Below, piece after piece: positions 20,070-33,229 of a stretch of 64,000 nucleotides of DNA. Position 1 is the stretch's first letter; every line of letters starts with the position of its first letter. The stretch comes from Pagrus major (taxonomy: Eukaryota; Chordata; Actinopteri; Spariformes; Sparidae), in the NCBI RefSeq assembly GCF_040436345.1, contig NC_133230.1, positions 21,648,197 through 21,712,196 of the forward strand, read 5' to 3'. The notes below the pieces were generated by a model, which did no database searches, was not told the origin of the DNA, and worked only from the letters and a program-made list of their open reading frames with translations. The translations under genes were made by a program, and so were the position numbers.

Positions 20070-23000
20070 ATGGACAAACTTGAAGGCTTGGAGAGTTTTT
20101 TGAAGAATGTTGACAAAATAAGTGAGTAATATAAGTGTAAACCTTATTAACACTAACACAAGGTAATAGCTTGTTAGCGAATGGCTAACTTGTGTTCGTG
20201 CTGAGGGAAGCAAAACTTGCTAAAGTCATTAGTTAGCAAACTAAACAGACAGATGAAGTATTGTTTGTTTAACCTACCACAAAAGTAAATGGCATTATAA
20301 CATTGACAAAGACATTATTTCCTAAAATCGGCTCAGATAAGTTTCACCAGATAACTGCTAGCTAGTATAGTAAGCTTACATAGCTTATGTGATTATTATT
20401 GATATTGAACATGTCCGTCAAGGCTTACAATAACATTTATCATTACTCTTTTTCAGGTGAGCTAGTGAAGGATATGAAGTCTTCTGATGCCGAAGTCCAG
20501 CAAAAAGCAATGGAGGAAGCTGACCGCTACATTTCTGCTTTGGATGAACCCTGCACAACAAAAGTCAACAAGACTACAATCAACACAAACCCACCGCTCC
20601 AGCCTTCCATAGTAAAGACATGCACACAAAGTCTCTCCAAGATGGAGAACAACTCCTTCTGTTGTTCTCCATCTGTCTCAGTCATTCTCACTCTGTCTGT
20701 ATGTCTTTCTGCTATATAAAAACGAGTCCATTTAACTTTTACATATGCACAACACAAATTTTCTTGTTGTGTTTTTTTCTACCATATCCCTTTTTTAATG
20801 CAAGGATGGGCATGGTATATGGATACGGAAGCCCTAAAGGGCCATGCATTCATACATTTTATTTCCTCCGTTTTCCCGTGATAACAAGTTAATTTCATTT
20901 GTTTTCTCGAGATCTTGAGTTATTATCTCGAAATAACAACTGCCATTTTCCCAAGATAATGGGATAATTTTCTCGAGATCTCAAGATAATGAAACTTTGT
21001 TTTCCCGAGATAACAATAGTGTAGTATATTAACTCATTGCAGGAAACATCATTCAGTGTAGCAATGTCAGAGGAGCAGGAGCATATCGATCACCGCGTCA
21101 CATATCTATTCATTCAAGGCCTGACACAAGCTGAAATAGCATTATGCCTTGCTATTACAGATAATATACACATTAGTGTGGTAATCTAAAAGGGCTTCAG
21201 CTATATCGGCGGCGCAATCTAAGCGAGCCTGATTTCGTCGTTAACTACATAGCTGACCAGTTACGAGGTCCCGGGCGTCTCCATAATCTCAGGCCTATCA
21301 TATCACAGTCATTATCCGAGATCTCGAATTAATTATATCGTTATCTCTGGAAAACAAAGTTTCGTTATCTCGAGATCTCGAGAAAATTATCCTGTTATCT
21401 CAGGAAAACGGCAGTTGTTATTTCGAGATAATAACTGAGTGCATGGCCCTTTAGGGCTTCCGTACTAAAAGGCGAGATCTTGAGAAAACAAAACGATAGT
21501 GTAGTATAAGTCATTGCAGGAAACATCATTCAGTGTAGCAATGTCAGAGGAGCAGGAGCATAGTCGATCACCGCGTCACATATCTTTTCAATCAAGGCCT
21601 GACACAGGCTGAAATAGTTTCGTTATCTCGAGATCTCGAGAAAATGATCCCGTTATCTCGGGAATACGGCAGTTATTATTTCGAGATAATAACTCGAGAT
21701 CTCAAGAAAACAAATGAAATTAACTTGTTATCGCGGGAAAACGGAGGAAATGAAATGTATGAATGCATGGCCCTTTAGGGCTTCCGTACTTTAGGGATTC
21801 CGTAAATGGATATACTTGTAATCGTTATTTTTCTGTTTTACAGAGTCTTCAGAATGAAAGTCCAGGTGAGTGGGTTATTTGGTTGTCCCTTGCAATGAAT
21901 TGCAACAGACTTACTGTATATGTGTGAAAGAAAAGTTTCTCAGAGTCACACAAAACAAACAGAATACAGCAGCAAACATACTCTTGTATCAAGAACAATG
22001 TAGAATTAAAAAAAAAAAAATGTAATCAGTAAAAATGTAACTGTTCGTGGTGAAAATTTGTTGCTCAATGATACTTTACTTCAGTGCTCTGTATATTTTC
22101 CAAGAAAGTAGCCTGCCTGAACAAACACAGCTGAAAAAGATGCACTTCACTTAGTGTTAGATCAGCCACATCCTCGACTATGATGCAACCAAAGTCTCAG
22201 CTTATGTCGATCAACAATATAAAATATGTTCTCCAAAAGACAGATACTGTCTGTGTGAGAACATTTTTTGTATTAACAATCTCACAGAGTAAGAAACCTG
22301 TGGGATTTCTATTGTTACCAAAGATGCCTTTTCGAAGCCTAGTTTAAAACCTGTATTTCAGTGTTAGGTGAAAGGACATACAGAACCCTGTTGTTTTGTT
22401 CTGACCTCAATTTTAATTAATTTAAATGTGTGACAACACTCTGACAAGGGATACCTTAAAGTGTAAATTTTTATACAATGCATTTGTGGCACTCGCGCTC
22501 AAGAGTTTTTTCTCTTTTTGACCAGAGAATTTCATGAAGATTATGGAAAAAGACGCTGAAGACAGGAGAGTGAGGAGGATTGCAAAAGAGAAAAAGGCAA
22601 CTGGTGTGTGATTCTCTGTTCCTCAAAGATGTCGTTGGAAGTGAACGGTTTTCTGTAAAGGCTAACAGTGCATCCATTTATGTGTTGTATGTTGTGTCAC
22701 TGCAGCACTCAAAGACAAGGGGAATGAAGCTTACGCTCAAGAAGACTATGAAACTGCTGTGAAGTATTACAGTGATGGCCTGGCTGAACTACGGGACATG
22801 CAGCCTCTGTACACCAACCGAGCACAAGTGAATATTTTCAGCCCTTTTTTCGTGTGTGTTTTACAATGAAAACACAGATTTTGTTTTGTAGGAAAAGGGT
22901 TGGAATTTAATCCAATGAGTTGATCCCAGATTTAAGAGAAAAGTGACAATTGTTGTCCTTCAGAAGAAATCAAAGCAGGTCGGCATTTGTGTGCTGATTA

Positions 23001-32162: not shown

Positions 32163-32236
32163 ATTCTGCTCTTATTCTGTATAAATTAAACTCCCAATTT
32201 TCTCCAATGAAGTTTGTTTACCACGTATCACTATAA

Positions 32237-32930
32237 TACGGAAGCCCTAAAGGGCCATGCATTCATACATTTTATTTCCTCCGTTTTCCCGTGATAACGA
32301 GTTAATTTCATTTGTTTTCTTGAGATCTCGAGTTATTATCTCGAAATAACAACTGCCGTTTTCCCGAGGTAACGATATAATTAATTCGAGATCTGGAGAT
32401 AATGACTGTGATATGATAGGCCTGAGATTATGGAGACGCCCGGGACCTCGTAGCTGGTCAGCTATGTAGTTAATGACGACATCAGGCTCACTTAGATTGC
32501 GCCGCCGATATAGCTGAAGCCTTGCTAACCGTCTTTTTAGATTACGCACACTAATGTGTAAATTATCTGTAATAGCAAGGCATAATGCTATTTCAGCCTG
32601 TGTCAGGCCTTGATTGAAAAGATATGTGACGCGATGATCGATATGCTCCTGCTCCTCTGACATTGCTACACTGAATGATGTTTCCTGCAATGATTTAATA
32701 TACGACACTATCGTTTTGTTTTCTCAAGATCTCAAATTAATTATGTCGTTATCTCGGGAAAACAAAGTTTTGTTATCTCGAGAAAATTATCCTGTTATCT
32801 CGGGAAAACGGCAGTTGTTATTTCGAGATAATAACTGGAGATCTCGAGAAAACAAATGAAATTAACTCGTTATCACGGGAAAATGGAGGAAATAAAATGT
32901 ATGAATGCATGGCCCTTTAGGGCTTCCGTA
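32237..32930 (-). mobile_element. Non-autonomous IS3EU-like palindromic DNA transposon, copy 2
   Basis: This 694-bp element begins TACGGAAGCCCTAAAGGGCC and ends with its exact reverse complement. It is flanked by a perfect 6-bp target duplication CTATAA (32231-32236 and 32931-32936). The inverted arms stay similar for about 170 bp and contain repeated TCTCGAGATCTCGAGA-like palindromes and CGTTTTCCCG blocks. The middle holds a minus-strand transposase fragment. It is inverted relative to the copy at 20824. The exact duplication and intact arms suggest a younger insertion than copy 1. IS3EU assignment rests on the 6-bp duplication, TAC termini and an integrase-type protein. Confidence 0.85.
32247..32663 (-). 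pseudogene. N-terminal remnant of an integrase-type transposase
   Basis: From ATG at 32663 the frame reads [18 protein letters not shown], then a helix-turn-helix-like stretch ([15 protein letters not shown]), a basic segment (NLKRRLARLQLYRRR) and [18 protein letters not shown] recall this as the start of fish proteins carrying a putative integrase core domain. After RLH the frame runs into the element's right arm, so the catalytic part is absent. It could bind element ends at most, and is probably inactive. Confidence 0.65.
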
Positions 32931-33229
32931 CTATAATGACCATATCACACCTTTCTCTTGAAGTTAAATGGATTGGGAAAATAAAAACAGTATACAAAAA
33001 TAATACAATGACAGTAAAGACAGATCAAGTGTAAGTGAAACAAATATGAAAATACAAAATTATATAAATATTAAAAAATAAATAGATGAATAGAAAACAG
33101 AAGTAGGCTTACACATACATTTATTAAACTGAGAGATTTGATAAGCGAATTCATTTCTAGATGAAAGGTGAAAACAGATTTATCACATTTCTGTTTATGA
33201 AAAAAAAAACGGAAATAGTTAAATTATGT

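Follow-up and report, generated by a model that had tools for sequence, protein, structure and literature searches.

A short IS3EU-like transposon with palindromic arms in the genome of Pagrus major

Positions 32237-32930 of the 64-kb stretch of Pagrus major DNA analyzed here (hereafter, the window) hold a 694-bp element with TACGG..CCGTA ends and long inverted arms that contain multiple short palindromes. The locus raises two questions, namely, to which superfamily of transposons the element belongs and what role, if any, the palindromes play. The original prediction assigned the element to the IS3EU superfamily, and this assignment is supported by the 6-bp target duplication, the ends and the existence of a relative with an integrase core. 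We conclude that the element is very probably a non-autonomous (MITE-like) DNA transposon of the IS3EU/GingerRoot superfamily, which is ordinary as a transposon, with an end architecture that lends itself to testing.

The element, its family and its relatives

The element, oriented on the minus strand by its transposase remnant, is flanked by the target-site duplication CTATAA, the left (32231-32236) and right (32931-32936) copies of which match exactly. The left terminal 23 bp, TACGGAAGCCCTAAAGGGCCATG (32237-32259, plus strand), open the left arm (32237-32402, plus strand), with palindromic motifs at 32284, 32315, 32336, 32359 and 32389; the right arm (32719-32930, minus strand) contains such motifs at 32719, 32749, 32773, 32795, 32818, 32839 and 32870. 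Between the arms lie a helix-turn-helix-like remnant of a transposase N-terminus, 78 codons in length (32430-32663, minus strand) and homologous to integrase-type transposases, and the junction of a 59-bp internal deletion (32429-32430), defined relative to the sister copies L078, L081 and L082. The inverted repeat (32228-32392 and 32775-32939) extends over 165 nt, including 9 flanking bases on each side, with 93% complementarity and 382 nt between the two halves; thus, the inverted arms of about 170 bp, the exact CTATAA duplication and the TAC termini, all proposed from the sequence alone, are borne out. No Rfam matches were detected in the 64-kb window at gathering thresholds. Elsewhere in the window, at 20824-21804, the same family is represented by a second copy, which is rearranged and has an internal right end at 21442-21464; its outer tip is apparently repeated, and its flanks, TATGGA and AATGGA, are alike in 5 of the 6 positions.

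The family is abundant and fairly young. When up to 3 mismatches are allowed, the 46-bp terminus has 1,277 matches across the 786-Mb genome (25 contigs), 634 of them forward and 643 reverse, compared with no matches for the reversed pattern used as a control, and a DNA search of the genome with the whole element yielded 873 first-look candidates, 40 of which were scored. The sample of 56 loci drawn for comparison was not random; it combined the 31 best-matching loci with 17 intact end pairs from contigs 1-4 and another 8 copies that are longer or variant. Every end pair listed reads TA..TA, and most read TACGG..CCGTA. Outside CpG sites, the copies diverge from the consensus by 1.2% on average and from each other by twice as much, the pattern of a star-like burst (53 aligned rows, in which the window copy appears both as the query and as L001, and L006 and L008 form a duplicate pair).

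Target duplications were counted in 51 copies, after five of the 56 loci, each without one recognizable end (L019, L059, L063, L081 and L082), were left out. The 6-bp duplication is exact in 37 of the 51 copies and has a single mismatch in another 7, compared with 5 of the 2,550 control pairings of left and right flanks from different loci, so that the duplication is as consistent as anticipated; the remaining 7 copies, with 3-5 mismatches, lack a recognizable duplication. Flanks identical at other lengths were observed for 4 bp in 2 copies, 5 bp in 1, 7 bp in none and 8 bp in 1. Among 36 targets (L008, the duplicate of L006, was omitted), S occupies position 1 in 26 and position 6 in 24, and W occupies position 4 in 35 (raw counts), that is, the targets favor G/C in the outermost positions and A/T inside. 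The apparent flip of the core of L006 relative to L008 against the same flank was considered as a case of core inversion between the arms and rejected because a single 3,702-bp stretch aligns in reverse with 99.9% identity, indicating that the two loci represent one insertion in a segmental duplicate.

Empty sites were compared for copy L060, which has the duplication CTTTGA and is inserted within an unrelated repeat. The joined flanks, used as a query, produced 40 scored matches out of 812 candidates, one of these being the filled locus. In each of the best 8 paralogous empty sites, all of which were aligned, the target is present once, without gaps, as CTTTGA in one site and CTTTTA in the other 7, in agreement with duplication of the target upon insertion.

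The original prediction also anticipated a longer relative with a DDE core. We identified one such relative, the 7.8-kb L067 (C1:38256058-38263824), which has TACGGAGCCCC ends (TACGG..CCGTA), an exact 6-bp target duplication, CAATGA, and an integrase core (Pfam rva_4, E=1.8e-20). The tips of L067 read TACGGAGCCCCTAAAGGGACATG on both sides, with 4 mismatches to the terminus of the window element over the first 24 positions. The transposase of L067 begins just within one end, and in both L067 and L064, the N-terminus homologous to the window remnant runs on into the rva_4 integrase core. Hence L067 is linked to the window element by the ends, the length of the duplication and N-terminal homology. 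A second copy, at C1:39827808-39835607, has identical flanking bases and shows 99.9% identity across the 3.6 kb that were compared; judging from the sequence, it is a segmental duplicate of L067. On one side, L067 is flanked by a piece of a DDE_Tnp_4 (Harbinger-type) gene (L090:1-528, E=1.6e-25) and, on the side of L067:2680-3241, by a frame that by eye resembles a coiled coil; L067 may itself be inserted in a Harbinger element.

An autonomous copy bearing exactly TACGGAAGCCCTAAAGGGCC ends was not found in the 19 loci and two extended loci scanned for the ends, the matches to the terminus being listed for the first 100 places. The genome was also searched for rva_4, with the best 150 of the 294 candidates scored. 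The best rva_4 loci, L049-L058, were rejected as the partner; they do not match the remnant significantly (lowest E 0.21), and none of the four palindromes tested was present in these stretches. L064-L066 and L068 encode homologous N-termini (weakly in L066, E 0.009) but have no ends within the stretches scanned; similarly, C12:1990519 and C7:33094755, which are among the closest N-terminal relatives, have no ends within 10.7 and 11.7 kb, respectively.

A scan of 23 loci for TA..TA ends with similar tips and an exact 6-bp duplication revealed three further families, L077 (CTCCTG), L076 (AACTAT) and L085 (GCCAAC), whereas in L091, both tips are present without a duplication (3 of the 6 positions differ). 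L076, L077, L085 and L091, the last of which overlaps L075, are short, IS3EU-like families, each retaining an N-terminal transposase remnant. From these sequences, remnant-bearing short forms seem to arise repeatedly.

The palindromes

The motif TTWTCTCGAGAWAA, with up to 3 mismatches, occurs 45 times in the 64-kb window, compared with a shuffle mean of 12.5 (largest value, 21); by manual count, 12 of these matches are in the window element, 19 in the copy at 20824-21804 and 14 elsewhere. Perfect palindromes of at least 8 bp show no enrichment in the window copy (6, against a shuffle mean of 3.6 and a largest value of 10) and are enriched in the longer copy L060 (40, against a mean of 8.8 and a largest value of 19). 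When 110 arms of the window family are aligned, their consensus contains 9 CGAGA half-sites. Within the terminal 170 bp of the two ends, CGAGA is found 3 and 6 times in the window element, 6 and 8 times in L067, 4 and 7 times in L077, 4 and 2 times in L091, and twice at each end of L076. In 1,000 dinucleotide shuffles, the means were 0.1-0.9 and the observed count was reached in at most 9 of the 1,000 (at most 35 of 1,000 with mononucleotide shuffles), which demonstrates concentration of CGAGA, not independent origin, given that shuffles ignore tandem copying. Dense palindromes, described in the original prediction as unusual, are thus present in the arms but are not peculiar to the window element because CGAGA arms are also found in L067 and in three short families. 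Given this recurrence in relatives, the palindromes look like a feature common to several families, and they are probably binding sites for the transposase.

In L067, 3-4 palindromes of the type TTTTGCGAGATCTCGCAAAA are located inside both ends, spaced 21-22 bp (about two helical turns) except for a single interval of 32; the one nearest the tip is centered 78-80 bp from it. More generally, the distance between the tip and the center of the first perfect palindrome is 78-81 bp for the two ends of L067 and the left ends of L076, L077 and L091; for the right ends, it is 76 bp in L076 and ~57 bp in L077. L085 contains no CGAGA and has palindromes of its own, GTGGCCAC and TGTGCGCACA, yet its remnant is closer to L067 (51% over 47 aa) than the window remnant is (34%), so the type of palindrome does not simply track the N-terminal domain.

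Under the mechanism that we propose, the transposase, probably in dimeric form, would recognize the outer ~23 bp along with the CGAGA half-site palindromes arrayed further in, bring the two ends together and join them, with a 6-bp stagger, to an S-WWWW-S target. On balance, we lean toward this role of the palindromes as putative docking sites. The piggyBac transposons offer a likeness in mechanism only: they target TTAA, and their transposase is unrelated to the integrase-type one considered here. As piggyBac ends are described in the pertinent part of PMC11707139, an outer recognition sequence and 19-bp palindromes at both ends are bound by two domains of the transposase dimer, which would be a parallel to dimer binding at the outer site and the end palindromes.

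A possible but unlikely alternative is that the palindromes are a by-product of repeat expansion, whereby a 54-bp repeat with internal symmetry spread by slippage and arm-to-arm copying. Some of the longer copies indeed differ chiefly by a 54-bp tandem repeat in the right arm; one arm of L060 contains 11.8 copies of this repeat (95% matches; L060:1876-2514), and one arm of L059 contains 10.4 copies (91% matches; L059:1821-2372). The 35-bp core of the 54-bp unit is represented 3 to 13 times over 52 loci (3 or 4 times in 41 of the 52; a loose count that includes look-alikes within ordinary arms), some loci have extra arms, and tandem copying is precisely what the shuffle controls disregard. Against expansion stand the palindromes of the same half-site that are found at either end in families whose arm sequences otherwise differ, and the similar distance from the tip to the first perfect palindrome for the L067 ends and the left ends of L076, L077 and L091. 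As a separate observation, L007, L017 and L044 contain extra right arms or tandem duplications of the element plus flank; in L017, the tip occurs twice with the same short stretch and a further arm behind it.

The predicted DNA hairpin of the element is strong (-213.9 kcal/mol, compared with a mean of -69.2 for 20 shuffles), as would befit a hairpin (fold-back) substrate that spreads via a single-stranded intermediate instead of by double-strand transposition. Such a route is nevertheless highly improbable given the 6-bp duplications, the discrete TA..TA ends and the clean empty sites, all of which are expected from an integrase-type transposase, and given that the full-length relative L067 has the same kind of ends. 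With the palindromes as docking sites, the hairpin potential would itself be a side effect, one that predisposes the arm to slippage and local duplication. Angel and other teleost fold-back MITEs are short, hairpin-forming and present in high copy numbers; the window family resembles them in size, hairpin and copy number, a likeness by description rather than by sequence comparison.

The transposase remnant

On its own, the reverse-strand frame has no Pfam match. A tblastn search with the remnant over a few given loci detected L072 (E=2e-12), L083 and L079 (5e-12 each), L065 and L068 (2e-10 each), L064 (5e-9) and L067 (1e-8), and this homology to genomic transposases that possess an integrase core confirms the integrase-type transposase N-terminus surmised from the sequence. 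The remnant is 33-34% identical to the N-terminus of L067. A single-sequence structure model of the remnant contains 4 helices (mean pLDDT 69.8) and is consistent with a helix-turn-helix, no more.

The remnant evolves neutrally, with dN/dS of ~0.96 for all changes, 1.25 for private and 0.89 for shared ones (in the same 53 rows, with the redundancies noted above). It is accordingly very doubtful that the short frame functions as a gene maintained by selection, such as one for a DNA-binding repressor or helper. A stop-free 99-aa frame is present in 134 of the 150 listed matches (the best 150 of 983 candidates by protein similarity), but many open frames are expected because the family is young. 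Nonsense changes are fewer than expected (3 observed against 11.5 in the 53 rows); a single CpG site contributes ~4.6 of the 11.5 expected stops, and without that site, the comparison is 3 against ~7. With dN/dS near 1 and a repeat arm that is open in several frames at once, we rejected the open frame as a gene. The longer open frames of L059-L061 (238-314 aa) were likewise discarded, since they represent read-through of the 54-bp array, in which more than one frame is open.

Three of the 56 copies, L078, L081 and L082, retain 59 bp extra where the window lineage was cut and, as their sequences suggest, are an intermediate step from a longer element. The family would descend from an autonomous IS3EU element that underwent an internal deletion, with the later 59-bp deletion giving rise to the window lineage, and would have spread in trans, by the transposase of an autonomous element.

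Superfamily placement and implications

The IS3EU superfamily has been sparsely described, with 45 Repbase families in 2022, of which 17 were autonomous; in the same part of this account, its members have TA..TA termini and usually 6-bp duplications (PMC10045372). The fungal IS3EU families have TAYGG..CCRTA ends, TIRs over 30 bp and 6-bp duplications, according to the description of their ends in PMC12730594. The window family and L067 share the TA..TA termini, the 6-bp duplication is the prevalent one in the sampled copies, and L067 encodes an integrase-type DDE transposase, of which the window copy holds the N-terminus only. No HHCC zinc-binding domain was detected upstream of the core among the Pfam matches at E<=1 in L067 and L064, a result at the domain level only; L067 gave only sub-threshold Clr5/Myb-like matches. 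Compared with the published descriptions of superfamilies by ends, duplication and core, IS3EU appears to be the best home for the element. That it belongs instead to Ginger1, Ginger2 or PIF/Harbinger-ISL2EU (PHIS), which are related integrase-type or TIR-bearing superfamilies, and merely resembles IS3EU is hardly credible, given the TA..TA ends and the duplication length (6 bp in 37 of 51 copies, against 4 bp in 2 and 5 bp in 1), whereas the lengths given in PMC10045372 are 4 bp for Ginger1, 4 or 5 bp for Ginger2, and none or 1-4 bp for PHIS.

The IS3EU/GingerRoot elements (Kojima 2023, PMC10045372) have the same TA..TA termini, 6-bp duplications and integrase-type DDE transposase (here, in the relative); the window copy differs in being non-autonomous, and CGAGA palindromic arrays receive no mention in the passages of that paper that deal with these elements. 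As far as can be told from descriptions, rather than from comparison with Repbase or Dfam names, the window family is apparently a new IS3EU family.

Apart from the transposase, L067 contains a second, convergent set of frames (L090:2700-3125 and L069:2-3203; C1:38257257-38260902) whose end corresponds to the C-terminal portion of a HECT domain (PF00632, E=5.5e-8). HECT-like pieces are also located convergent to the transposase of L066 (62% over 63 aa; Pfam E=0.069, below the cut-off), upstream of the L064 transposase on the same strand (38% over 47 aa, no Pfam match) and convergent to the transposase at C7:33094755 (28-35%, E=5e-17 and 2e-17); no HECT piece was found in the 10.7-kb stretch at C12:1990519. 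Neither the L064 transposase nor the HECT piece matched any PDB sequence at E<=1, and a literature search joining IS3EU and HECT found no publication. The fungal TET-positive IS3EU elements (Kojima 2025, PMC12730594) have the same type of ends, 6-bp duplications and a second gene oriented opposite to the transposase, which encodes an alpha-kinase or TET/JBP, in contrast to the HECT domain in L067. A HECT companion gene would parallel these alpha-kinase and TET genes.

Taken more broadly, the IS3EU elements of this genome might combine a two-part end, consisting of a ~23-bp terminus and a palindrome array (with CGAGA in several families), with a dimeric transposase, a number of docking sites that grows by 54-bp expansion, and, in autonomous members, the regular presence of a convergent HECT ubiquitin-ligase-like gene; we offer this combination tentatively, as plausible but short of probable. 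A single genome brings together a young short family with more than 1,000 termini, paralogous empty sites, intermediate deletion copies and a full-length relative, and because these co-occur, end recognition in IS3EU becomes testable, in particular, which part of the end is bound by the transposase and whether additional palindrome repeats are a help or a hindrance.
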